Of a DNA stretch of 64,000 bases, positions 7,420 through 64,000 are shown one piece after another (positions within the stretch are counted from its first letter, which is position 1; the number at the start of each line of letters is the position of its first letter). Source of the stretch: Candidatus Zixiibacteriota bacterium (GTDB lineage: Bacteria; Zixibacteria; MSB-5A5; DSPP01). The notes beneath the pieces are model-generated. The model searched no databases and was not told where the DNA came from. It saw nothing but the letters and a program-made list of their open reading frames with translations. The DNA is taken from contig JAKEHY010000023.1 of NCBI GenBank assembly GCA_022614805.1, forward strand, positions 1 to 64,000, given 5' to 3'. The position numbers and the translations under genes are program-made.

Positions 7420-7845
7420 ATGCATAAACCGATGAGACGGAACGGCGGTTTCACTTTAATCGAGTTGATGATCGTGGTGGTTATCATCGGCATTTTAGCG
7501 GCGATGGCCATTCCCCGCTTTTTCGCCACAACCGTAAAAGCCAAACAGTCAGAGGCAAGAACAATTTTGAAACAGGTTTATACCATGCAGTTACCTTATC
7601 GTCAGCAGTATGACACTTACTGGGGAAATGGTACAACCGCTTCCGCCGCCGCTCCAACCGGTTTCAGCGGGATAGGTGTGGACATTGAATCCAACTCGCG
7701 ATATACCTACACCATGGTTGCCGGCAGTCTCTCCTTTACCTGCACGGCAACTTGCGGAATTTTGGACGATGACGCCACGCCAGATGTCTGGCAAATTGAC
7801 AACTTCGGCGATTTAAAAGTCACCTCCGATGACGCTGCATCATAG
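7420..7845 (+). CDS. Type IV pilin (PilA-like), copy 1
   Basis: A 141-residue prepilin. A short basic leader ends in Gly-Gly, then the class III cleavage site Gly^Phe-Thr-Leu-Ile-Glu-Leu-Met-Ile-Val-Val-Val with Glu5 of the mature protein and an N-terminal hydrophobic helix. The globular part has a Thr-Ala-Thr-Cys segment and ends in Val-Thr-Ser-Asp-Asp-Ala. Only the PilA major-pilin style is present, with no type II secretion pseudopilin features. It has its own sigma-54 promoter and terminator, so it is a single-gene unit. Processing would be by the prepilin peptidase at 16087. The copy at 8914 is a close paralogue. Confidence 0.92.
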   Translation: MHKPMRRNGGFTLIELMIVVVIIGILAAMAIPRFFATTVKAKQSEARTILKQVYTMQLPYRQQYDTYWGNGTTASAAAPTGFSGIGVDIESNSRYTYTMVAGSLSFTCTATCGILDDDATPDVWQIDNFGDLKVTSDDAAS

Positions 7846-7872
7846 TTAAGAATCTTAAAAAACCTAATTTGG

Positions 7873-7897
7873 AGCCCCGCAAAAGCGGGGCTTTTTT
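7873..7897 (+). terminator. Rho-independent terminator after pilin 1
   Basis: AGCCCCGC (7873-7880), loop AAAA, GCGGGGCT (7885-7892) and then a T run. A strong GC stem with a tetraloop, 27 bases after the pilin stop codon. Confidence 0.92.
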
Positions 7898-7916
7898 GGT
7901 GCCCATTATCGACCGG

Positions 7917-8540
7917 TTAGGCCAATTCGCGCCAGAAGTTTTCTTTGACCCTTCGGGCATCTGGATGGGATAAGGTTGCCGGGTTTTCTATGTCCAGGTG
8001 CCAGTTCAATGGGTTGTCCATGATGTATTGCCGGATTTTGTTCAGGGATTTTTCGCTGCGGATGACGTGCTCGTAATAATTGCGCTGCCAGACCGGCAAG
8101 CCGGGGGTTCGGCAAAATTGATTGATTAATTTTGCCGTTTGATATTTGTAATAGGCCACGATTTTTCCCAACGTCGGTTTTGGTTTTTGTAGGGGCGGGG
8201 TTTCCCCGCCCATTTCCCTACCCACGGGCGAGGTGACCTCGCCCCTACAGGTGAATTCGTTGTGGTTTGCGGTTATAACGACAATTCCGTGCAGATGGTT
8301 CGGCATCACCACAAATTCATACAGTTGCACGTTCCCGAAATGTCTTGAAATCTCCAACCAATAATCCCGGACAATTTGTCCAACCTTTGATAATTCCATC
8401 GCTCCATTTCTAATTTCACCAAATAAACATTTCCTGTTCTTTGTGCAAATGGTGATAAAATAGGCCCCTTCGCCGGAATAATCGTATTCCCGTAGCCGTA
8501 TGGAGCGTCGTTGGGGTCTGGGTTGGTCCATTTTTGACAT
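7917..8540 (-). CDS. REP-associated tyrosine transposase (RAYT, Y1 family)
   Basis: A 207-residue Y1/IS200-like transposase of the RAYT group. It opens with Arg-Leu-Arg-Glu-Tyr-Asp-Tyr and Tyr-Phe-Ile-Thr-Ile-Cys-Thr. The metal-binding HUH-type motif is Met-Pro-Asn-His-Leu-His-Gly, and the catalytic tyrosine region is Trp-Gln-Arg-Asn-Tyr-Tyr-Glu-His-Val-Ile-Arg. Met at 8540 is chosen because the longer frame (to 8714) is only read-through of palindromic repeats. About 20 residues between the HUH motif and the tyrosine helix are encoded by a copy of the local palindrome (8189-8248), so the gene carries the repeat it presumably mobilises. RAYTs are domesticated enzymes that act on REP palindromes. 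Confidence 0.85.
   Translation of the reverse strand: MSKMDQPRPQRRSIRLREYDYSGEGAYFITICTKNRKCLFGEIRNGAMELSKVGQIVRDYWLEISRHFGNVQLYEFVVMPNHLHGIVVITANHNEFTCRGEVTSPVGREMGGETPPLQKPKPTLGKIVAYYKYQTAKLINQFCRTPGLPVWQRNYYEHVIRSEKSLNKIRQYIMDNPLNWHLDIENPATLSHPDARRVKENFWRELA
8189..8248. repeat. Double palindrome inside the RAYT gene (GTAGGGGCG family)
   Basis: A 60-base unit of two palindromes, GGGGCGGGG/CCCCGCCC and GGGCGAGGT/ACCTCGCCC, bounded by GTAGGGGCG and CGCCCCTAC. It is nearly identical, in reverse orientation, to 8624-8683. It lies in frame within the transposase coding sequence. Confidence 0.9.
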
Positions 8541-8623
8541 TCGGCCAAAAATGTAGAGGCGTCTCGGTTTGTCAACCGTAAAAGCGGGGTTTTCCTGGCC
8601 CGTCTGTAATGTGACCCCGGATT

Positions 8624-8683
8624 GTAGGGGCGAGGTAACCTCGCCCGGTGGTGGGGAAATGGGCGGGGAAACCCCGCCCCTAC
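8624..8683. repeat. Double palindrome upstream of RAYT (GTAGGGGCG family)
   Basis: A 60-base unit matching the reverse complement of 8189-8248 at nearly every position. With that copy it brackets the RAYT start, giving a REPtron-like arrangement: a transposase gene next to facing palindromes. Confidence 0.9.
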
Positions 8684-8745
8684 AAAAACCAATTTCATCA
8701 TTCGCATTTTGCAATAATATTGGCGGGTTACTTCTGGAAATGGGT

Positions 8746-8773
8746 GTAGGGGCGAGGCATGCCTCGCCCCTAC
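8746..8773. repeat. Single 28-base perfect palindrome (GTAGGGGCG family)
   Basis: A perfect inverted repeat, with GTAGGGGCGAGGCA on each strand. The 8541-8913 gap holds this, the 60-base unit at 8624-8683 and the sigma-54 promoter of pilin 2; I see no gene in it. Confidence 0.9.
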
Positions 8774-8848
8774 GGTCTAACCCACCCCGTAACCGATTGA
8801 AAACAAATCGGTTGCGGGGTCGAAAAAAGGATTGGTTTGAACCTCTTT

Positions 8849-8863
8849 TGGCATTGGGGTTGC
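8849..8863 (+). promoter_or_regulatory. Sigma-54 promoter of pilin gene 2
   Basis: TGGCAT-N5-TTGC with a 10-base GG-to-GC interval, closer to consensus than the pilin 1 promoter. The predicted start is near 8875, about 39 bases before the ATG at 8914. Confidence 0.8.
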
Positions 8864-8913
8864 GTTAAAGATAGCCGACGATTATGAAAACCAATAACCA
8901 AAGGGAGGAACAG

Positions 8914-9339
8914 ATGTTTAACAAGAAACACGGCCAGAAGGGTTTCACCCTTATCGAGCTGATGATTGTCGTGGTCATCATCGGTATTCTGGCGGCATTG
9001 GCGATTCCGCGTTTTATGCGGGCTACCACCAAGTCCAAACAGTCGGAAGCCAAGTCGATACTGAAGCAGGTTTATGTTATGCAGCAGGCCTACCGGCAGG
9101 AAAAAGACCTTTATTGGACCGGGGGGCCTGCTTCCGCGGCGGCTCCGAACGGTTTTAGCGGCATTGGCGTAGAAATCGGTCCGACCGCCCGGTATTCCTA
9201 TGTTTTGTCGGGCGTCACAAGCATTGCCTTTCTCTGCACGGCAACCGCTAGTAATTTAGACGATGACGCTGCGATTGACACCTGGACGATTAACGAAACC
9301 GGTCTTCTGGTGGTCACCTCCGACGACGCAACCCTGTAA
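8914..9339 (+). CDS. Type IV pilin (PilA-like), copy 2
   Basis: A 141-residue prepilin, with leader Met-Phe-Asn-Lys-Lys-His-Gly-Gln-Lys-Gly^Phe-Thr-Leu-Ile-Glu. It aligns with the copy at 7420 end to end, sharing the Gly-Phe-Ser-Gly-Ile-Gly-Val segment, the Cys-Thr-Ala-Thr motif and the Val-Thr-Ser-Asp-Asp-Ala ending. ATG 8914 is preceded by AGGGAGG at 6 bases and gives the normal short leader; an ATG at 8884 would add ten residues. It is monocistronic, with a sigma-54 promoter and a terminator. The duplicated pilins may be alternative major subunits. Confidence 0.93.
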   Translation: MFNKKHGQKGFTLIELMIVVVIIGILAALAIPRFMRATTKSKQSEAKSILKQVYVMQQAYRQEKDLYWTGGPASAAAPNGFSGIGVEIGPTARYSYVLSGVTSIAFLCTATASNLDDDAAIDTWTINETGLLVVTSDDATL

Positions 9340-9352
9340 AGCCACACCACGA

Positions 9353-9382
9353 AAAAGCCCCGCTTCGGCGGGGTTTTTTTTT
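9353..9382 (+). terminator. Rho-independent terminator after pilin 2
   Basis: CCCCGC (9358-9363), loop TTCG, GCGGGG (9368-9373), a run of nine T after it and an A run before it. Confidence 0.92.
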
Positions 9383-9388
9383 GTTTGA

Positions 9389-9433
9389 CCTCACCCCCTA
9401 ACCCCCTCTCCGATACGGAGAGGGGGAATGAGG
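9389..9433. repeat. CCCCTCTCC/GGAGAGGGG palindromic repeat (family 2)
   Basis: An inverted repeat around CCCCCTCTCC-gata-GGAGAGGGGG, flanked by CCTCACCCCCTAA and AATGAGG. Related units occur at 29079, 35175, 35434, 36412, 38939 and inside queA (44828). Confidence 0.75.
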
Positions 9434-9474
9434 TAACGGAAAAGGGGATTTCTTCCGAAAACAAGAAAGGGGAT

Positions 9475-11499
9475 ATGAATAACCGGTTGGAGCGTTTTTG
9501 TCTTTTGGCCTCGTTTGTTTTGCCCTTGGGGGTCTATTTCTACACAGCCGCTCCCGGGCCTTTCTGGGAGGACTCGGCCACCTTTTCTATGGCGGCGGCC
9601 ACGCTTTCCATTCCCCATTCTCCCGGGTTTCCGCTGTGGGTTCTGGTTGGGAAGTTGTTTACCTGGCTTGTTCCCCATAATCCGGCCCGGGCCACCAACT
9701 TAATGTGCGGGTTTTTTGGGGCGGGAGCGGTGGCGCTGTTTTATCTGTACGCGCATAAAACCTTGGCCAGGTTAAACGGGTCTTTTTTTGGAGAAGAAAA
9801 TCAGGGCAGAATATATTCTGCCCCTACGATTGCATTAACTGCGCTGGGAGCGGCCTTGGTTTTTGCCTTCAGCCAGACCGTTTGGCTGCAGGCTGTGCGG
9901 GCGGAGGTGTATTCCCTGCAACTGGTTTTAACTCTTTCCGCCTTGTTTATCGCGTTGTCCTTGGATGTGACCGAACGGCCGACCCGATATTTTCTTCTGG
10001 CCGCCTTTCTGTGGGGGCTTTCGGCAACCGTCCATCCTTTGCTTTCCGTTTCAGTTCTGCCGGGGTTTTTGATTATGGGCTGTTTTAAATCCGCAAACTG
10101 GAGAAAAGAAATATCCAAATGGGGGTGGGCAATTGGATTGATTATGCTGGCGGCCACGGTGTATTTGTTTTTACCCGTACGCTCGGCCCAGGACCCGTAT
10201 CTGAACTGGAATCAGCCGGACAACTGGGAGCGTTTTTGGGCAGCCGTCACTCGCTCCGGCAGCTGGCAGGCCTCGGTCGCCTCCACGTCGTCCAACCTTT
10301 CCTATCCCAATATGATGCGGTTGACCATTTTTATGCTTTTGGAATACTCTCTCGCCTTCTGGGGTCTGGTTGTTCTCGGAATCCTTGCCTTGGCGCATTA
10401 CCTGCCCCGAGTCGGGTTGGGAATTTTTGTGCTGTTGCTTTCGAATTTCCTGGTGACTTTGTGGGCGGCGGAATTCAGCCCTTGGAACCTCGATATTTTG
10501 GGTTACCTTTCTTTCGGGGCGGGGTTGGCCGTGTTATCGGCTGCGGTGGGTTTACTGCGCGCCTTCGTGTGGCTTTATGGCCGTTTGCCGCGGTTATCAC
10601 CAAAAGTCAGATGGGCAGTTCCAATCCTGACTCTGATTTTTGGCCTTTTTTGGGTCGAAAAAAATTGGGCCGGCGCCGATTTGCGCGAGAGCCGCTGGCC
10701 GCAAAAAATAGCCGGGGAAAGTCTCGCCTCCCTGCCTCCCAACGCCGTGGTAATTTATTCATCCGACCGGCTTTTAACTTCAGCTTTGTATCAGCAAGGG
10801 GCTTTGGGGCAGAGACCGGACGTGGCTATTTTGCTCACCAACGTTTTCATAGATTCATTACTGCGAGGGCGGGTTCGACGGCATTATCCAGATTTGGTGT
10901 TTGACTCCCTGCCGACAGGTAGATCTCAAAAGGCTCAAATCCGAAAAGGTTTTTCGAACTTTTGTCAACGGAATAAGCGCCCCATTTTTAGCCAGTTGGG
11001 TTTCCACATGGGAAACAGCAGGTATTTTTGGCCGGCCGGCTACCTCCTGCAATATCGACCGGAGCCGGCGGGGCCGGGGGTGCCGAAAGAGGTGATTGAT
11101 TTTGTGCGCAAGACCTTCACCGGAAGGCCGGACGTCCTTTCACGGGAGAGTCTGGTGTTGGAAATCTATAATTGGGGAGCCTATCTATCCATAATTGGCT
11201 CGCCGGCAAACGAGATTTTGCTCAAACTGGCGGCAGAATATGATGGGGAAAATCCGCGCACCTGGGTAACGCTGGGGAAGGCGTATCTTTTTTCCCGCCA
11301 GTTTCCCTTAGCCGAGACCTGCTTTAAGCTGGCGCTTTCCTATGACCCGTACTGGGGGGAGGCGTACTTTTTTTTGGCCACCGCCCTTCAGCAACAGGGA
11401 AAATTCGACGAAGCCAAAGAGGCCCGGGCGGAAGGTAACTGGCTGGTGCCGGACAAATTAAAACCGATGGGGCAGGAAGATGAAAAAACGCGTAGATAA
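9475..11499 (+). CDS. DUF2723 membrane glycosyltransferase-like protein with TPR tail (paralogue B)
   Basis: A 674-residue polytopic protein, paralogous to 5308-7350: Phe-Trp-Glu-Asp-Ser-Ala after the first membrane span (Asp-Ser kept), Ile-Pro-His-Ser-Pro-Gly-Phe-Pro-Leu-Trp, Gln-Ala-Val-Arg-Ala-Glu-Val-Tyr and Ser-Ala-Thr-Val-His. The last 100 residues look like two TPR units. ATG 9475 follows AAAGGGG; the longer frame starts in a repeat. A GTAGGGGCG-family palindrome (9802-9827) adds about nine residues in a loop between membrane segments. It heads an operon with overlapping genes through 16878. Expected role: transfer of a lipid-linked sugar to an exported acceptor, perhaps pilin. Confidence 0.78.
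   Translation: MNNRLERFCLLASFVLPLGVYFYTAAPGPFWEDSATFSMAAATLSIPHSPGFPLWVLVGKLFTWLVPHNPARATNLMCGFFGAGAVALFYLYAHKTLARLNGSFFGEENQGRIYSAPTIALTALGAALVFAFSQTVWLQAVRAEVYSLQLVLTLSALFIALSLDVTERPTRYFLLAAFLWGLSATVHPLLSVSVLPGFLIMGCFKSANWRKEISKWGWAIGLIMLAATVYLFLPVRSAQDPYLNWNQPDNWERFWAAVTRSGSWQASVASTSSNLSYPNMMRLTIFMLLEYSLAFWGLVVLGILALAHYLPRVGLGIFVLLLSNFLVTLWAAEFSPWNLDILGYLSFGAGLAVLSAAVGLLRAFVWLYGRLPRLSPKVRWAVPILTLIFGLFWVEKNWAGADLRESRWPQKIAGESLASLPPNAVVIYSSDRLLTSALYQQGALGQRPDVAILLTNVFIDSLLRGRVRRHYPDLVFDSLPTGRSQKAQIRKGFSNFCQRNKRPIFSQLGFHMGNSRYFWPAGYLLQYRPEPAGPGVPKEVIDFVRKTFTGRPDVLSRESLVLEIYNWGAYLSIIGSPANEILLKLAAEYDGENPRTWVTLGKAYLFSRQFPLAETCFKLALSYDPYWGEAYFFLATALQQQGKFDEAKEARAEGNWLVPDKLKPMGQEDEKTRR
9802..9827. 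repeat. In-frame palindrome inside the DUF2723 gene
   Basis: A perfect short palindrome, CAGGGCAGAATA facing TATTCTGCCCCTAC, lying within the coding sequence and read through without a stop. Confidence 0.8.
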
Positions 11500-55447: not shown

Positions 55448-55460
55448 TAACACCGAGCGC

Positions 55461-55506
55461 GCTGGCATAGCTCAGTTGGTAGAGCAGCGGTTTTGTAAAC
55501 CGAAAC
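55461..55506 (+). pseudogene. 5' part of a tRNA-Thr (TGT) gene, 3' part lost
   Basis: Acceptor GCTGGCA, D-arm GCTC-AGTTGGTA-GAGC and anticodon arm with loop TTTGTAA (anticodon TGT) are intact. The sequence then departs from tRNA: no variable loop and no GGTTCRA T-arm. A TGCCAG at 55513-55518 might be a remnant of the 3' acceptor strand. tRNA genes are common integration sites, and the defence island begins just downstream. The 500-base stretch 55225-55724 holds this, the mini-ORF and no other gene that I can see. Confidence 0.7.
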
Positions 55507-55724: not shown

Positions 55725-56168
55725 CTAAAGATGAATAATCTCGAGGTCTGGCCGAACGGATTTCAGGTATTCGGCAACCAATCGCCTATGGCATTCTTCC
55801 GGGGTCGCTTCGGCGCAAAGTAGGCAAATTCTGTTGCAATCAGCGGTGATTTGGTCGAAGATTTCAGGGATTGGTCTGCTTCTCAACAACAGCGTATATT
55901 CCTGCACGTAGCCAGTCCAATCCGAGGTCTGTCTGAAGTTTCTTCGGATTTTGCTTGTTGGGGCGAATTCCTTGATTTGCTGATACTCAATCCCGAGTTT
56001 TTCTTCCACGATGGGTCTAAGCTTTGATGCCCTATATTCGCCCGAACCGATAAAGTTCGGGTTTTGCCTCGTGTCGATTATTTTGCGGATGCCATTGCCT
56101 TGAATGATGGTACAGAAGAGGTCGAGAGGCTTTTTACCGTAACCGATCGTAAACAGTTTAATAGACAT
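55725..56168 (-). CDS. DUF488 family protein
   Basis: A 147-residue protein with the DUF488 pattern: Phe-Thr-Ile-Gly-Tyr-Gly at the N-terminus, Ile-Ile-Asp-Thr-Arg near residue 31, and Cys-Leu-Leu-Cys-Ala-Glu-x4-Glu-Cys-His-Arg-Arg-Leu-Val near 115-130. The Cys-x-Glu...Cys-His-Arg segment is the family hallmark. Function unknown, though members occur often in defence and mobile loci. It starts 25 bases after the nuclease gene stop and is probably co-transcribed with it. Confidence 0.88.
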   Translation of the reverse strand: MSIKLFTIGYGKKPLDLFCTIIQGNGIRKIIDTRQNPNFIGSGEYRASKLRPIVEEKLGIEYQQIKEFAPTSKIRRNFRQTSDWTGYVQEYTLLLRSRPIPEIFDQITADCNRICLLCAEATPEECHRRLVAEYLKSVRPDLEIIHL

Positions 56169-56193
56169 ACTTCATGACATCGGCCTGAGTTTC

Positions 56194-56835
56194 CTATTGG
56201 TTAGCCACCTCGCGGCTCCATTTACAAAACTCGCAGCTCCCGTTAAAGTCCGGCAGGGCGCCTTCCAGACACCGCTTCGCCTGCTGGTACAATTCGAATG
56301 CCCTTTCTGGACGAGTCTTTAACTGGTGGACTTCGACTTCGAACGGAACGCCTTTATGCAATTCTCCCGTAGCCGGGCTGTAGTAAATGATACAGGCCTC
56401 ATCGGTCGTTTTGTGGCCGGTCTTCTGAAGCAGTAGCGTATAGGTATCCATTTGGGTCTGGTAATACCTCGCGCTGTAGCTCGTGTCGCCGGGCAGCGAA
56501 GCTCTGGTCTTGTGGTCTAATGGAATCAGCGAACCGTCCGGTAGCTGAAGGCAGTCATCCAGCTTTCCGGTGATTTTGAGGTCTATATCCGGCACTTCGA
56601 ACTTTAGGTTTAGGGATATGGCGGCCAGCTTCCCCTTCACCTTGCCATCAATCAGGGGCGGCAGCTTGCCATCCTTCCTATAGCGATTGAAGTATTCCTT
56701 GATTACCAAATCCATTCCACCCGGCAACGAGGGAAAAATTCCCCTGGGCCTGGCAATCTTCTTATTGAACTGAATCCAGAAGCAGCGCGGGCACTCGATG
56801 AAGAGGCTTAGGGTGGAGTTGGAAAGGGAGATCAT
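56194..56835 (-). CDS. PD-(D/E)XK nuclease, Cas4/RecB-like
   Basis: A 213-residue nuclease. Ser-Asn-Ser-Thr-Leu-Ser-Leu-Phe-Ile-Glu-Cys-Pro-Arg-Cys-Phe-Trp (6-20) is the usual start of Cas4/PDDEXK_1 proteins. Asp93 in Gly-Lys-Leu-Asp-Asp, Asp107-His-Lys109, and Gln-Met-Asp-Thr-Tyr near 128 form the RecB-type active site. Cys15/Cys18 with Cys201/Cys204 could hold an iron-sulfur or zinc site, as in Cas4. No cas genes or CRISPR array are present. It is divergently transcribed from the Argonaute fusion across 151 bases, suggesting a functional pairing as an accessory nuclease. Confidence 0.85.
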   Translation of the reverse strand: MISLSNSTLSLFIECPRCFWIQFNKKIARPRGIFPSLPGGMDLVIKEYFNRYRKDGKLPPLIDGKVKGKLAAISLNLKFEVPDIDLKITGKLDDCLQLPDGSLIPLDHKTRASLPGDTSYSARYYQTQMDTYTLLLQKTGHKTTDEACIIYYSPATGELHKGVPFEVEVHQLKTRPERAFELYQQAKRCLEGALPDFNGSCEFCKWSREVANQ

Positions 56836-56986: not shown

Positions 56987-59900
56987 ATGTTGCCAAGAGA
57001 GCTATTCGACAAACCTGACGTAGCGAAATTTGCGGACCGATATTTTGAGTCGCAGGTTTTTGAAAGAAAACGGGGTTTCACCGCGGAAAGGACAGCCGCG
57101 ACAATTTCCGCCTTTGCAAACGTTAATCCAGATGGCGGTTTAATCGTCATGGGAATTGAGGATGACGGCCGCGTATCGGGGATTTTCCAGTTCGGCCGGG
57201 GGTGGGTGAGTCACGTTCAAAAAAGCCTGAACGGAATAATACCTGTAGCAAATATTTCCGTTAAAACCACTCCTTGCTTGAATGCTGGAGGTGCCCCTGA
57301 TGAAATTCTTTTAATCCACGCAGCCTTTTCGTCAAGCAGGGTTGTGGAAGTTTCAGACGGTCGAGCTTTCAAGAGAATTGGAGAAGAAACCATTGAGCTC
57401 TCAGAGGACGAGAAACGAGAGCTAAGGATTTCCAAAGGTGAGTTGGAGTATGAAAGAGAACCGGTCACCGAATATAATCCTGAACTTTTGGACTCGCACC
57501 TAGTGGACGATTTTCTCCACCGAATTAAAGCCAGAGATTCTTTAAGCTTGGAGGTTTCCGCAGAGGACGTCCTTTTGAACAGAAGGTTGATTACGAGAAG
57601 AGAGGGTAAACTTTGGATTACTATTGCGGGGGCACTTCTATTTTATAAAGACCCCTGCAATATTATTCCCGGTGCAAGGGTGCGCTTTCTAAGATTTCAA
57701 GGGACCGAAGAGCTATTTGGTTCGGAATCAAATATTATTAAGGACTCTTACTTTGAAGGCCCACTGGCACGGCAGATCGCTAAACTGCAGGAGTTTTTAC
57801 GGACTCAGATTCGAGAATTTAGCTATCTAAACGAGGATGGCAGATTCGTCACAGAGGCAGAATACCCTGAATTCGCTTGGCTAGAAGCCCTTGTAAACGC
57901 TATTGCTCATCGGTCATATAATTTAAAATACGCTAACATTTTTGTGAAAATGTTCGATGACAAACTGGTAATAGAGAGTCCGGGTAGCTTTCCTGGAGTA
58001 GTTAGTGCATCAAATCTCATCCATTATCCGCGCAATCCGGTCATAATGGATGCGCTTCGCTATATGGGCTACGTAAAGGCCGCGAGGGAAGGAACCCGGA
58101 GGATGTACCAAGAAATGGAAAGAATGGAGCTTCCTCCTCCAGAGTTTAAAGGGGAGTCAAGTCAGGTTGTCGTGATTTTGTACAACAACATGGCGGAACG
58201 GGAAAAGAAAAGGAGTAAGACAAAAGAACCAATATCCTACGAGGTTGGGAATCTATTCCGTATGCAAATTGACGAGTCGAAGGGCACACTAGACGAAACA
58301 GAAAGCAAAATTCGCGAAGAATTTATCAAAAAACTAATGGCTAACGGTTGGGTACTAAGCCCTTTCAGGACATCGGCTCATTCTATAAAGAAAGAGCTAA
58401 AAGCAATCGAAGTTAAAGGCACGCTTGTATGCAGTATTCGCAAAGGATTTCGATTTTCATTCAAACGCTATAAGGATACACTGTTTCTCGCGATTGACCC
58501 CAAGGTTCAATTAGTTAACCATTTAACTCTGAAACAAATATTGGAAATTGTTCCAGATATTCGCTCGGTGCTTCCACGATATAAAATTCAGGCATTCGAC
58601 GTCGATAAAGATGCGCATTTAACCATATTGGGCTTAAAGAATGATAAAATGGCCAAGGTCACCATTGACCAGAAAGTATTTGAATTCCCGACTGACGAAC
58701 TCGTACCAGCCCTACCTGCCGATTTAACCCAACTCGTTCTTAAAGAGGCCTCGTCCACCGTGGATATCCGGAAAGAAATTGCGAGATATGCGAATTTGAC
58801 AGTTACAGACGCACCTCGGAAGAGGTTTACAGACACCATAGAACTTGCGAATGAACTCGCCGCGAAGATATTTCCCCTCAAGATAGATGGTACAACAATT
58901 TACATGAAGCCCGAACCCGCAAACCTAACCTTACCGGTCTTTTATGTAAACAGAGATCTCCGCGAGCCGGCTGCCACCTTTGACCCCCAGGGAACTAAAA
59001 AGGAAAGAGAAATTCTGAGCGGCCTTGTTAAGTTTGGCTCTTATGAAAAGCCCGATGCGACCATCTCTCTAATATCACTGGTAACCCCAAGCCAATCTAA
59101 GAATATGAATAGGCTTGTTGGCCAGATTGTAAAAGGTAGCTTCAAATTTGCCGGTATGGAGCGTGCTTTCAGTACCAAGATTACGGCCGAGAAAGTCATC
59201 ACTACAAAATCTCCCGATGATTACCTTGCAGCGTGCAAAGGAGAAGTGCCGCGATTGGATGAAAACAAAATCTATATGTTCCTGGCGTATTGCCCTGAGG
59301 GTACCTATTCACGAGAAGACTACTCGGCACCTTATTATACCGTTAAGAAATTTCTTTTGGAGAATGGCATTCTTTCCCAGATGGTGGATGAAGATACTCT
59401 AAATAATCCGAAATTCAAAGACTTCAATTTGGCCTTAGACATATTTGCAAAGAGCGGGTTTATCCCATGGGTCTTGGCGGACGGTTTGCCGGACGTAGAC
59501 CTAATTGTAGGGCTTTCATATTCGTCAATATCGGGAATAGAAAAACCTAACAGGGTAATCGGGTATGTTAACGTGTTCGACCCTTTCGGGAGGTGGCAGT
59601 TTTACAGAGGGAGTTCAAAAGCGTTTTCCTATGAAGAAAGAAAGAAATACTTTAGCAAATTAGTTGTAGAAACCGTGGAGGAAATTCAAAAAGATAGAAA
59701 TATCAAGAAAGTACATATCCATGTTTCCTTTAAACTCAGCAGAGAGATTAAGGAAGAAATTTATAACCAGCTCGCAGCTATTATACCTGGTATTTCAATT
59801 CATTTTGTTTGGATTAATCAAGGCCATACGATAAGGTTTTTTGACACGAATCCAACGGGAACTGGAAGCTTTCAGCGTGGATTATATGTTGTCACGTCTA

Positions 59901-60205
59901 AAGACCAGTTTTTCATCGCCACGACCGGAGAAAACGAGTTAAACCAGCAAAGTCTTGGCACTCCAAAACTTCTTGAAGTTAATGTTTCCTCACTTCCCAG
60001 GGAACGTTATCCAGACCTGAAAACTATAGCCTTTCACGTCCTAAGCCTTACTAAACTCAACTGGGCATCGACCAAGTCGTTCTGCAGAGAACCCATTACA
60101 ATCAAATTTGCGTCTGATATCGCTTACTTAATGAATGCCTTCCTAATGTCATCCGAAAGCTTTGTGTTAAACAAAAAGCTTGAAAAAAAGCCGTGGTTTT
60201 TATGA
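56987..60205 (+). CDS. AlbA_2-HATPase-Argonaute fusion protein (predicted defence)
   Basis: A 1072-residue single reading frame with two modules. Residues 1-400 resemble the Schlafen AlbA_2 / HATPase_c_4 family: Phe-Glu-Arg-Lys at 25-28, Ala-Phe-Ala-Asn-x5-Gly-Gly-Leu-Ile-Val-Met-Gly-Ile-Glu-Asp-Asp-Gly (42-61), then Trp-Leu-Glu-Ala-Leu-Val-Asn-Ala-Ile-Ala-His-Arg (298-309), Asp-Asp-Lys-Leu-Val-Ile-Glu-Ser-Pro-Gly and Arg-Asn-Pro-Val-Ile. Residues 420-1072 match a long prokaryotic Argonaute: a PAZ/linker-like region (Phe-Leu-Ala-Ile-Asp near 505), MID with Tyr783-Tyr784, Lys787/788, Gly-Ile-Leu-Ser-Gln798 and Lys822 in Ala-Lys-Ser-Gly, and PIWI with Gly-Leu-Ser-Tyr-Ser at 842-846 and Leu-Thr-Lys-Leu-Asn-Trp at 1021-1026. 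Catalytic aspartates are replaced (Ser844, Ser914), so it should bind but not cut. hsdM follows 79 bases later. Confidence 0.85.
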   Translation: MLPRELFDKPDVAKFADRYFESQVFERKRGFTAERTAATISAFANVNPDGGLIVMGIEDDGRVSGIFQFGRGWVSHVQKSLNGIIPVANISVKTTPCLNAGGAPDEILLIHAAFSSSRVVEVSDGRAFKRIGEETIELSEDEKRELRISKGELEYEREPVTEYNPELLDSHLVDDFLHRIKARDSLSLEVSAEDVLLNRRLITRREGKLWITIAGALLFYKDPCNIIPGARVRFLRFQGTEELFGSESNIIKDSYFEGPLARQIAKLQEFLRTQIREFSYLNEDGRFVTEAEYPEFAWLEALVNAIAHRSYNLKYANIFVKMFDDKLVIESPGSFPGVVSASNLIHYPRNPVIMDALRYMGYVKAAREGTRRMYQEMERMELPPPEFKGESSQVVVILYNNMAEREKKRSKTKEPISYEVGNLFRMQIDESKGTLDETESKIREEFIKKLMANGWVLSPFRTSAHSIKKELKAIEVKGTLVCSIRKGFRFSFKRYKDTLFLAIDPKVQLVNHLTLKQILEIVPDIRSVLPRYKIQAFDVDKDAHLTILGLKNDKMAKVTIDQKVFEFPTDELVPALPADLTQLVLKEASSTVDIRKEIARYANLTVTDAPRKRFTDTIELANELAAKIFPLKIDGTTIYMKPEPANLTLPVFYVNRDLREPAATFDPQGTKKEREILSGLVKFGSYEKPDATISLISLVTPSQSKNMNRLVGQIVKGSFKFAGMERAFSTKITAEKVITTKSPDDYLAACKGEVPRLDENKIYMFLAYCPEGTYSREDYSAPYYTVKKFLLENGILSQMVDEDTLNNPKFKDFNLALDIFAKSGFIPWVLADGLPDVDLIVGLSYSSISGIEKPNRVIGYVNVFDPFGRWQFYRGSSKAFSYEERKKYFSKLVVETVEEIQKDRNIKKVHIHVSFKLSREIKEEIYNQLAAIIPGISIHFVWINQGHTIRFFDTNPTGTGSFQRGLYVVTSKDQFFIATTGENELNQQSLGTPKLLEVNVSSLPRERYPDLKTIAFHVLSLTKLNWASTKSFCREPITIKFASDIAYLMNAFLMSSESFVLNKKLEKKPWFL

Positions 60206-60284: not shown

Positions 60285-61799
60285 ATGTTAGACATCAAAA
60301 CGCTTGAAAATTGGCTCTGGGAGGCGGCATGCAAAATCCGGGGAGAAATTGAAGCGCCAAAATATAAGGATTACATCCTCCCTTTGATTTTCTTGAAGCG
60401 ACTCTCTGACGTTTACGATGATGAGGTTTCGAATTTAGCCGCCGAGTACGGCGACAAAAAGATTGTTCATCAGCTCATTGAAGAAGATCATAGCCTGGTC
60501 TGGTTCTTCCTCCCGGAAAAAGTGCGGTGGAACGGCATAATAAAGCAAAGCACCCGGCTCGGCGAGTACCTAACTGATGCGGTTCGGGCCATAGCCAGGG
60601 AAAATCCTAAGCTCCAGGGTGTGATTGACATCGTGGATTTCAATGCTGCTACGGCCGGGCAGCGTGTGATTAGCGACGAGAAATTGAAACTACTCGTTGA
60701 CACTCTGAATAAGCACCGGCTTGGCCTAAAGGACGTCGAACCCGACATTTTGGGTAGGGCCTACGAGTACTTGCTTAGAAAATTTGCCGAAGGCTCAGGC
60801 CAGAGTGCCGGGGAGTTTTACACGCCGAGAGAAGTCGCAATTTTAATGAGCCAAATTGTGGACCCCAAAGAAGGGGAAGAGGTCTACGATCCTTGTCTTG
60901 GTTCTGGTGGTCTGATAATTAAGTGCTACCTGCGATTTAAGGAGAAATTTGGAGACAATGCGAAAATAAAGCCTCTAAAGTTTTACGGCCAGGAAAATGT
61001 CCATAGCACCTACGCCATGGCAAAAATGAATGCCTTCATCCATAGAATGGAAGCAGAAATTGCCTTAGGCGATACGATGAACCGGCCGGCATTCACCGCC
61101 TCCGAGGGTTCGCTGAGAAAATTCGACATCGTAGTTGCTAATCCAATGTGGAACCAGGATTTCGTTCAAAGCACGTATGAAAATGATGGTTTCAATAGGT
61201 TCGTTTACGGATATCCGCCTTCTTCTTCTGCCGATTGGGGTTGGATTCAGCATATGTTTGCTTCTCTAAAACATCAAGGAAGACTGGCGGTAGTGATTGA
61301 TACTGGTGCCATTTCCAGAGGCTCGAGGAATGCGGGGTCAAACAGAGAGAAAAGCATACGGAAGGCATTTCTTGAAAATGACCTAATCGAGGCCGTTGTT
61401 TTATTGCCGGAAAATCTTTTTTATAATAATACTGCTCCAGGTGTGATAGTAATTCTCACCAAAAACAAGAAACATAAGAGTGAAGTTCTAATTATCAATG
61501 CTTCTAAGCTATTTGAAAAAGGAAGACCAAAGAATTTTCTACCTGAAAAAAGCATTAAAACCATAGTCGACCTATTTCACAAGTGGAAGGGAGAAAAAGG
61601 CTTGAGTAAGATTATTACAAAGGAAGAGGTGTCTGCAAATGACTATAATCTTAGTCCTTCAAGTTATATCTCACAAAATGGTGGAGAAGAGGTGCTGGAT
61701 TTGGACGATGCCATAGTGCAAGTTAAGGACGCGGAAGAAGAAAGAAAGCTCGCAGATTATAAACTAAAAAAAGTTTTGGAAGAATTAGGGTTTGAGTGA
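60285..61799 (+). CDS. hsdM: Type I restriction-modification DNA methyltransferase subunit
   Basis: A 504-residue HsdM. An N-terminal helical domain (Trp-Glu-Ala-Ala-Cys-Lys-Ile-Arg-Gly) precedes SAM motif I Asp202-Pro-Cys-Leu-Gly-Ser-Gly-Gly. The catalytic motif IV is Asn286-Pro-Met-Trp, a variant of the usual Asn-Pro-Pro-Phe/Tyr in which the second Pro is Met. Ala-Gly-Glu-Phe-Tyr-Thr-Pro-Arg-Glu-Val is typical of the family. It N6-methylates adenine in a bipartite target chosen by HsdS. The start is supported by GGGGTGAC before the ATG. It overlaps hsdS by 8 bases. Confidence 0.93.
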   Translation: MLDIKTLENWLWEAACKIRGEIEAPKYKDYILPLIFLKRLSDVYDDEVSNLAAEYGDKKIVHQLIEEDHSLVWFFLPEKVRWNGIIKQSTRLGEYLTDAVRAIARENPKLQGVIDIVDFNAATAGQRVISDEKLKLLVDTLNKHRLGLKDVEPDILGRAYEYLLRKFAEGSGQSAGEFYTPREVAILMSQIVDPKEGEEVYDPCLGSGGLIIKCYLRFKEKFGDNAKIKPLKFYGQENVHSTYAMAKMNAFIHRMEAEIALGDTMNRPAFTASEGSLRKFDIVVANPMWNQDFVQSTYENDGFNRFVYGYPPSSSADWGWIQHMFASLKHQGRLAVVIDTGAISRGSRNAGSNREKSIRKAFLENDLIEAVVLLPENLFYNNTAPGVIVILTKNKKHKSEVLIINASKLFEKGRPKNFLPEKSIKTIVDLFHKWKGEKGLSKIITKEEVSANDYNLSPSSYISQNGGEEVLDLDDAIVQVKDAEEERKLADYKLKKVLEELGFE

Positions 61800-63063
61800 T
61801 ATCGTGGTGCGAAAAGAAAATCCCCGAACAATAAAGGCTGACCAATTACAGCCTGGTGACCAACCCTTTGGCTGGCGGATTGAAACTGTAATCGGCTGCA
61901 CCTTGAATAAGCGAGCATCAGTTGGAAAGGTTAAACAGCAACGCTATAAAAAGCAAGGTAAGTATCCTATTGTGGATCAAAGTCAAAAGCTAATTGCAGG
62001 TTTTTGGGACCAGGAAGAAGACGTATATAAAGGGAATCTTCCTGTGGTCGTATTCGGAGACCATACTAGGATTGTTAAGTATATCGACTTTCCATTCGTG
62101 TGTGGAGCTGACGGTACGAGAATTCTGATTCCTGATACCCAGATTGTATTTCCTCTTTTTCTTTACTATTCCCTCTTATTTATAGATATACCGAGCAGGG
62201 GATATAACAGACACTACTCGTTACTAAAAGATAGGGCTTTGCGGTTACCGCCTTTGCCTGAACAAAAGAGTATTGCCGTCGTACTGTCCGCCATTCAAGA
62301 ATCAAAAGAAAGGACAAAGCAGGTCATTGGTGCTTTGCGAGAGCTAAAAACATCTCTAATGAAGCATCTGTTCGATTTTGGGCCCGTAAGGTTGGAGGAA
62401 ATCGGCAAGGTAAATCGTAGAGAAACCGAGGTCGGGCTGATTCCTAAAACATGGAAAATTACAAAAATATCGGATGTTGTAGAAAACACACCCTACGTAA
62501 ACGCCAGACGCCCCCTTAGTATGAAATTTAGATATGTGGATGTGTCTAGCGTTAACAATGTCTCTCTTAAAATTGAATTAACAGCTACTTACGAAGGCCG
62601 GAAGGCTCCCAGCAGGGCGCGGAAATGGATTAAGAATGGCGACGTAATAATTGCTACAGTGAGGCCAACTCTGAAAAGAATTGCCCTGATAGGCCCAGAC
62701 TTAGACGGTCAAATTTGTTCTACCGCATTCTGCGTTTTGAGGGCAAATAGCGGTGCGATGGATAATAAATACCTCTTTTATGCTATCCAGAGAGATGCCT
62801 TCATCGAAAATCTTGGAAAACTACAAAGGGGCGCAAGCTATCCTGCCGTTACTGACAAGGATGTAAAGAGTCAAAAGATACCGCTCCCGGATCCGAGCGA
62901 TCAACTACAGATTTCCCTCATCCTGTCTGCGCTTGATGAAAGAATAGCTCAAGAAGAAAAAAAGGCGGAAACGTTGGCACAATTATTTCAGTCGATGCTT
63001 CATTACCTAATGACCGGTATAGTGAGGGTCAACCATTTGAAGTTAGAGGTTGGGCATGGCTAA
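61792..63063 (+). CDS. hsdS: Type I restriction-modification specificity subunit
   Basis: A 423-residue HsdS with two target-recognition domains (about 20-165 and 215-370). Each is followed by a conserved helix: Leu-Pro-Pro-Leu-Pro-Glu-Gln-Lys-Ser-Ile-Ala-Val-Val-Leu-Ser-Ala near 160 and Ile-Pro-Leu-Pro-Asp-Pro-Ser-Asp-Gln near 365. Asp/Glu-rich coiled helices act as the spacer ruler. It reads the two halves of the recognition site. Start TTG 61792 overlaps hsdM; GTG 61804 is the alternative. hsdR begins inside its end. Confidence 0.9.
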   Translation: MSDIVVRKENPRTIKADQLQPGDQPFGWRIETVIGCTLNKRASVGKVKQQRYKKQGKYPIVDQSQKLIAGFWDQEEDVYKGNLPVVVFGDHTRIVKYIDFPFVCGADGTRILIPDTQIVFPLFLYYSLLFIDIPSRGYNRHYSLLKDRALRLPPLPEQKSIAVVLSAIQESKERTKQVIGALRELKTSLMKHLFDFGPVRLEEIGKVNRRETEVGLIPKTWKITKISDVVENTPYVNARRPLSMKFRYVDVSSVNNVSLKIELTATYEGRKAPSRARKWIKNGDVIIATVRPTLKRIALIGPDLDGQICSTAFCVLRANSGAMDNKYLFYAIQRDAFIENLGKLQRGASYPAVTDKDVKSQKIPLPDPSDQLQISLILSALDERIAQEEKKAETLAQLFQSMLHYLMTGIVRVNHLKLEVGHG

Positions 63064-64000
63064 GCTTGGGGTTGAAAGGACTGCAGTGCAGGCTCCACTA
63101 GTCCAATATGCATGCGAAATAGGATGGGAATACGTTGGGCAAGAAGAAGCTCTAAGGCTTAGGGGAGGGAAGACCGGCCTGCTCTTTAAAGAGGTTTTTA
63201 CCGATCAAATACTCAAACTCAACTCCGACTTTATTGACCACCTAATGATTGAGGAAATCATAAAGAAACTTGAGAGATTACCTGCCAGGATTGAAGGCAA
63301 TCTACAGGCCTGGGAATACCTGCGGGGACTTAAAACCGTGTTCGTGCCTGACGAAAAGAGAGAAAGAAACGTCAAATTCATTGATGAGGACATCAAGAGC
63401 AATGGTTTTCACGTGACGGACGAATTTGAGTTTACGAATGGAACTCATACGAATCGGTATGACGTTGTCTTTTTGATTAACGGCGTGCCCGTTTTCTTCG
63501 TAGAGACCAAGGCTGCTCACAAACTGGAAGGCATTCAGGAGGGCCTTGACCAAGTCAGAAGGTACCACAGAGAAACTCCGGAGGCCATGACGCTGTTTCA
63601 GATTTACACCCTGACTCACATCATACAATTTTTTTACTCAGCCACTTGGAATTACTCGCACAAAACCTTGTTTAACTGGAAAAGGGAAAGCCAGGAAAAG
63701 GACTTTGAGAATTTGGTAAAGGCTTTCTTCGACCGAAAGGCCGTGGTCGGTACGCTCCTGAAATACATCCTGTTTACAAGGCAGGATGACGAACTAAAAA
63801 AGGTAATTCTAAGGCCTCATCAGATGAGAGCAGTCGAGAAAATTGTAGAAAGGGCCGCCCATAAAATCAAACACAAGGGCCTAATTTGGCACACGCAAGG
63901 AAGTGGAAAAACGTACACAATGATTGTGGCGGCACAGGCCATCTTAGAGAATCCCTTGTTTGAAAATCCCACCGTCATTCTGCTTGTGGATAGAAACGAG
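63056..64000 (+). CDS. hsdR: Type I restriction endonuclease subunit, N-terminal 315 residues (runs off the window)
   Basis: Open to the window edge. ATG 63056 overlaps the hsdS stop by 8 bases. The N-terminal nuclease domain has Asn-Arg-Tyr-Asp136-Val-Val-Phe and Val-Phe-Phe-Val-Glu150-Thr-Lys152, the PD-(D/E)XK site, then Gln-Val-Arg-Arg-Tyr. The motor domain begins with Arg-Pro-His-Gln-Met-Arg-Ala and Walker A His-Thr-Gln-Gly282-Ser-Gly-Lys285-Thr, followed by Val-Ile-Leu-Leu-Val-Asp-Arg. It translocates DNA and cuts unmodified DNA. No frame disruption is visible, so the system looks intact as far as it can be seen. Confidence 0.93.
   Translation, partial: MAKLGVERTAVQAPLVQYACEIGWEYVGQEEALRLRGGKTGLLFKEVFTDQILKLNSDFIDHLMIEEIIKKLERLPARIEGNLQAWEYLRGLKTVFVPDEKRERNVKFIDEDIKSNGFHVTDEFEFTNGTHTNRYDVVFLINGVPVFFVETKAAHKLEGIQEGLDQVRRYHRETPEAMTLFQIYTLTHIIQFFYSATWNYSHKTLFNWKRESQEKDFENLVKAFFDRKAVVGTLLKYILFTRQDDELKKVILRPHQMRAVEKIVERAAHKIKHKGLIWHTQGSGKTYTMIVAAQAILENPLFENPTVILLVDRNE

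Follow-up and report, generated by a model that had tools for sequence, protein, structure and literature searches.

A rare gene fusing a putative Schlafen-type ribonuclease and a GHKL ATPase module to a predicted long-B Argonaute in a Zixibacterial genomic island

Introduction

What might a prokaryotic Argonaute (pAgo) accomplish when it is built into the same polypeptide as an AlbA_2 domain and a histidine-kinase-type ATPase? Systems built on pAgos are known to cut their targets, deplete NAD, degrade DNA or damage membranes. The question is raised by a gene in a 64,000-nucleotide stretch of DNA from a Candidatus Zixiibacteriota bacterium (hereafter the window; contig JAKEHY010000023.1, positions 1 to 64,000). 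From the sequence of the window, an original prediction had proposed that this gene encodes an inactive Argonaute whose N-terminal module stands in the effector position, with RNA cleavage among its plausible outputs.

Long-B pAgos are led to DNA by RNA guides, and they then activate an effector by which the cell is killed or its growth arrested (PMC10620215). Furthermore, the survey by Ryazansky et al. (2018; PMC6299218) lists several long-B pAgos to which AlbA_2 (PF04326) is fused and counts this domain as DNA-binding. As in the present protein, AlbA_2 there forms the N-terminal part of a long-B pAgo, although the passages on these fusions make no mention of a GHKL domain or of an RNase identity, both of which we assign here. 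Our literature search found no functional study of an AlbA_2-pAgo fusion, which agrees with the original prediction that no system of this kind is known to have been characterised.

Results

A single frame encodes three modules

The fusion gene (56987..60205, + strand) translates as one intact frame of 1072 codons with no internal stop, as had been proposed, and it is single-copy in its genome. Its product begins with a Schlafen AlbA_2 and GHKL ATPase module (residues 1-406, hereafter the N-module), which is followed by the pAgo. Pfam places SLFN_AlbA_2 (PF04326) at residues 21-137 (E 9e-10) and HATPase_c_4 at residues 317-398 (E 3.9e-17). Both matches pass the curated thresholds and bear out the predicted composition of the N-terminal half. 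The PADLOC pAgo profile PDLC02394 covers residues 27-1072 (E 1e-233), and independent PADLOC pAgo profiles cover residues 431-1072 with E values down to 1e-70.

The same order of parts, from AlbA_2 through the ATPase to the pAgo, is present in protein WP_200805567 (1138 aa) of Rubrobacter radiotolerans plasmid 3 (NZ_CP007517). This orthologue aligns to residues 3-1072 of the Zixibacterial fusion at 32% identity, and the conserved positions include N400, N401, A403-E406 and N422-F424 at the junction. Since an independent, complete plasmid carries the same architecture, the join between the N-module and the pAgo is real. Given also that GC and GC3 are alike on both sides of the join, we rule out an assembly chimera or a frameshift between the modules.

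The Rubrobacter protein differs from its Zixibacterial counterpart in being plasmid-borne, in lacking an adjoining restriction operon and in having a diverged N-module. It matches PDLC02394 with 1973 bits over the full 1121 positions, and this profile was probably built on the Rubrobacter protein or its close kin. The architecture itself is therefore not new, being represented both in this profile and in the 2018 report (PMC6299218), and on this point the original prediction was put too strongly. Our literature search found no papers on the Rubrobacter protein.

The fusion is nonetheless rare. Among 72,556 plasmids searched, only that of Rubrobacter carries it, and no further example appeared among 50,697 phage records, in the viral contigs searched, or in genome sets representing the same phylum, 'relatives' and five other phyla (with some genomes counted twice). 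A single scan of genome contigs returned stand-alone N-modules and no fusion. The Rubrobacter N-module is nearest to that of the Zixibacterial fusion, but on a long branch. A separate origin of the two fusions was also considered, and placing them in one clade was not rejected (p-AU 0.19).

The Argonaute half carries the long-B signature

The best solved relatives of the MID-PIWI half are EcAgo (E 4.8e-13) and RsAgo (E 9e-9), both of the long-B type, and the matches strengthen to E 2e-26 and E 7e-22, respectively, with a three-sequence profile. These matches, together with the pAgo profiles, uphold the MID and PIWI portions of the predicted Argonaute, whereas the PAZ-like portion received no match to a PAZ profile in the Pfam search. 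The N/PAZ/linker region (residues ~420-663; 58244..58975, +) is covered by full-length pAgo profiles only, and the stretch from linker to MID comprises only ~240 residues. A full-length AlphaFold2 model, made from a four-row alignment, reached a pLDDT of 48 and was unusable.

Alignments with RsAgo and EcAgo delimit the MID domain with its guide 5'-phosphate pocket (residues ~664-832; 58976..59482, +). Residues Y783, K787, Q798 and K822 fall on the motif of the RsAgo guide 5'-end pocket, which is of the YK type, and by this alignment the pocket is intact. The PIWI domain (residues ~833-1072; 59483..60202, +) was aligned with AaAgo and with a pAgo from a gut phage record that keeps the VGLD, HRDG and YADK motifs. 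In both alignments, S844, S914 and S1043 occupy the three catalytic aspartate positions, and on these grounds an active slicer is ruled out. The Rubrobacter orthologue has the same loss of PIWI aspartates and the same MID motif. According to the 2018 survey, long-B pAgos almost always have a YK pocket, and such a pocket together with a lost slicer tetrad is their pattern (PMC6299218). Because the YK pocket is intact and the DEDX aspartates are lost, the Argonaute half, as judged from its residues, probably belongs to the long-B group. The proposal of an inactive PIWI domain with the N-module in the effector position is supported.

The nearest pAgo relative without AlbA_2 is encoded on a plasmid of Adhaeribacter radiodurans (7470-11302) and has an N-terminal topoisomerase-type zinc ribbon. 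A frame of 504 aa that matches nothing in Pfam or PADLOC overlaps this gene and is a candidate effector.

The N-terminal domain resembles Schlafen ribonucleases

The AlbA_2 domain (residues 1-153; 56987..57445, +) was defined from the PF04326 match and from an AlphaFold2 model of the N-module aligned to Schlafen lobes. This model, built from ten sequences, has a pLDDT of 88. Residues 1-153 match the active lobes of SLFN14, SLFN5, SLFN11, SLFN12 and SLFN13 with Z scores of 9.4-10.5 and the SAMD9 tRNase with a Z score of 10.2, and the whole N-module matches 3LMM (Z 23). An N-module profile also matches SLFN11, SLFN14 and SLFN12 (E 3e-6 to 5e-4).

Profile alignment to the SLFN11 motif ESQSIEFK places E21-x4-E26-x-K28 (57047..57070, +) on the catalytic glutamate pair of SLFN11 and SLFN13. 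In SLFN13 this pair, E205/E210, is essential and an aspartate contributes (PMC5862951). The place of this third Schlafen carboxylate is taken by an acidic stretch, E58-D59-D60 (57158..57166, +), in which E58-D59 aligns to GVDD of SLFN11; counting the residue spacing in SLFN11 and SLFN13 puts E58 on Asp248 of SLFN13. Residues E21, E26 and K28 are invariant in the fusion and three close stand-alone relatives, and E21 is kept in more than 90% of the wider set. The third acid, a glutamate instead of an aspartate in the fusion, varies across relatives, and the Rubrobacter protein lacks it and has D in place of E26.

Given that both the fold and the catalytic glutamates match those of the human RNases SLFN11, SLFN13 and SLFN14 and of SAMD9, RNA cleavage is a plausible output of the N-module, in keeping with the original prediction. 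The modelled domain is thus plausibly a Schlafen-type RNase with E21 and E26 as its catalytic glutamates. AlbA_2 domains carry DNA-binding annotations as well, and a shared Schlafen fold is not proof of RNase activity. The variable E58, the changes in Rubrobacter and the degenerate ATP lid described below count against the RNase reading, and the comparison covers two fusion proteins, a thin sample for co-conservation.

The ATPase domain may bind nucleotide

Pfam and structure alignment identify a GHKL/histidine-kinase-type ATPase domain at residues 229-406 (57671..58204, +), encompassing the HATPase_c_4 match. The model of these residues matches the catalytic ATPase domains of histidine kinases with Z scores of about 8.4-9.1. 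Of the GHKL motifs, the N-box is retained (E300, N304), whereas the ATP lid reads SPG instead of DxGxG in nearly all relatives, so ATP binding appears plausible from these motifs and hydrolysis uncertain. Nucleotide gating through the fused domain is likewise plausible.

When residues encoded by 56987-58204 were compared with PADLOC, a piece of the ATPase region (residues 135-335) matched PDLC02402 and PDLC02418, which are profiles of SIR2-'kinase'-APAZ partners of pAgos. From these matches, kinase-like modules appear to recur in pAgo systems. However, the SIR2-'kinase'-APAZ proteins partner short pAgos, whereas the pAgo of the fusion is of the long-B type, and Pfam finds no SIR2 match in the fusion protein.

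The Argonaute stands where relatives have a winged helix

The nearest stand-alone proteins of the Schlafen-ATPase-winged-helix type are 39-44% identical to the N-module and occur in several phyla as well as on virus contigs. They carry an extra tail of ~85 residues that is winged-helix-like, and in one of them the tail has Pfam matches to MarR/DUF977. The pAgo of the fusion starts where this tail would start, which suggests that the pAgo replaces the winged helix of the stand-alone architecture. A 2026 survey of BREX systems describes proteins with a Schlafen RNase, a minimal histidine kinase and a wHTH as a backup suicidal effector beside BREX in at least 1017 taxa (PMC12839542), and cites a preprint on anti-phage bacterial Schlafens. 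These 3LMM-fold proteins share the AlbA_2-then-GHKL N-module but end in a winged helix, where the fusion has a 660-residue pAgo. One distant relative sits within a Vibrio BREX locus. Stand-alone Schlafen-ATPase-wHTH genes were also seen near the integrase gene of temperate Gordonia and Mycobacterium phages, annotated as a RecG-like helicase or a hypothetical protein.

The fusion gene lies at the edge of a genomic island

A truncated 5' part of a tRNA-Thr gene (55460..55502, +) forms a 43-bp direct repeat with the intact copy (contig 110125-110166), and these two copies bound an island of ~54.7 kb with the fusion gene at its edge, the truncated copy marking the left border. The intact tRNA-Thr gene (contig 110125-110197) and the end of an integrase-like frame (108977-110146) overlap. 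In a genome of the same genus, the left flank runs straight into an intact tRNA-Thr gene, the arrangement that an unoccupied site should show, although the right flank is not syntenic. The fusion gene lies just inside a low-GC part of the window (0.43-0.47 vs 0.56 before it). An AT-rich, promoter-like stretch raised the idea of an archaeal origin, which was rejected because a 16S fragment proved to be of bacterial type. Three genes at contig 82279-84559 within the island have a chromosome-like GC content of 65-68%, and given this return of GC at 82.3-84.6 kb the island may be composite or nested. A Pfam-confirmed phage integrase is present at contig 73988-75214.

On the 5' side of the fusion gene lies a divergent gene for a 213-aa PD-(D/E)XK protein (RecB/Cas4-like; 56194..56835, -), identified by Pfam and PADLOC. 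A DUF488 gene adjoins it on the same strand (together 55725-56835), and the DUF488 protein matches the PADLOC candidate defence profile PDC-M45C. On the 3' side, hsdM (type I DNA methyltransferase; 60285..61799, +) is followed by hsdS (specificity subunit; 61792..63063, +), both recognized by Pfam and PADLOC, and by hsdR (63050..64000 in the window, +; Pfam), which continues to contig position 65953. A YgjP-like gene lies near this operon. Neither a type I restriction operon nor a PD-(D/E)XK gene is found beside the Rubrobacter orthologue, and the restriction operon therefore probably adjoins the fusion gene without being its partner. A comparison of the two neighbourhoods found no conserved effector gene adjacent to the fusions, which fits an effector carried within the protein itself.

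Discussion

We consider it about an even proposition that the fusion constitutes a single-polypeptide abortive-infection system in which guide-directed target recognition switches on a Schlafen-type RNase. The long-B pAgo half would bind a small 5'-phosphorylated guide without being able to cut, and by analogy with EcAgo and RsAgo this guide would be an RNA that finds complementary DNA. The RNase would be held in check by the GHKL ATPase domain. Upon target recognition, a change in the shape of the pAgo could be relayed via the ATPase domain to the Schlafen domain, which would then be free to cleave RNA, by analogy tRNA or rRNA, and the growth of the infected cell would stop. The fusion would thus have swapped a fixed sensor or targeting domain, the winged helix, for a guide-programmed one. 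More tentatively, the protein can be viewed as a guide-programmed Schlafen ribonuclease in which the cutting-dead Argonaute is a replaceable address reader for invader DNA, substituted for the winged helix that a widespread anti-phage effector carries, and in which tRNA or rRNA is cleaved by way of an ATP-binding hinge.

The BPAN, BPAS and BPAM systems (PMC10620215) likewise couple an inactive long-B pAgo to an effector. In those systems, however, the effector is a separate downstream gene encoding a nuclease, a SIR2 protein or a membrane protein, whereas here it is fused and of the Schlafen type. No og_15, og_44 or og_100 effector gene lies directly downstream of the fusion gene, where hsdM-hsdS-hsdR is found instead.

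Other explanations of the architecture must be weighed against that of a guide-activated RNase. The AlbA_2-ATPase module might be a nucleic-acid-binding accessory that helps the pAgo hold its target or guide, with silencing achieved by binding alone. The grouping of AlbA_2 with DNA-binding domains in the 2018 survey (PMC6299218) favours such a role, as do the poorly conserved third carboxylate and the second glutamate altered in Rubrobacter, but the invariance of E21, E26 and K28 in close relatives, the wide retention of E21 and the finding that no solved folds come closer than Schlafen RNase lobes and the SAMD9 tRNase lead us to regard it as unlikely. Another use of an RNase-like domain in the same chain as a pAgo would be to make guides, by chopping RNA into 5'-phosphorylated pieces that are then loaded, and EcAgo is known to carry small 5'-phosphorylated RNAs derived from the transcriptome (PMC10620215). 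This is quite improbable, given that long-B pAgos elsewhere acquire their guides in the absence of any such domain and that inactive pAgos need an effector, a role for which the two fusions have no other conserved gene beside them.

It is less probable again that the real effector is a neighbour. Although hsdM begins only 80 bases 3' of the fusion gene on the same strand, and BPAN systems employ PD-(D/E)XK nucleases as their effectors (PMC10620215), neither gene accompanies the Rubrobacter orthologue, restriction operons are common in defence islands, and the PD-(D/E)XK gene is oriented divergently and has another GC content (0.53 vs 0.43). Least probable in our estimation is a guide-directed transcriptional or nucleotide-signalling regulator that operates without RNA cleavage. 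The GHKL fold and the winged-helix relatives are compatible with regulation of this kind, but the catalytic glutamates and the Schlafen lobe have been retained, and no kinase phospho-acceptor domain is seen in the fusion protein.

Our analysis adds to the known architecture the putative Schlafen RNase identity of the N-terminal domain with its catalytic residues, the histidine-kinase-type fold of the ATPase, the replacement of a winged helix by a pAgo and a second, distant member. The single chain makes expression and testing easy. If the proposal of a guide-activated RNase is true, a Schlafen output would add guide-directed RNA (translation) shutdown to the outputs of pAgos, contained in one polypeptide, and the protein would exemplify an effector in which an Argonaute has replaced the sensor domain. 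The vertebrate antiviral Schlafen and SAMD9 tRNases would also gain a link to an RNA-guided sensor in bacteria.
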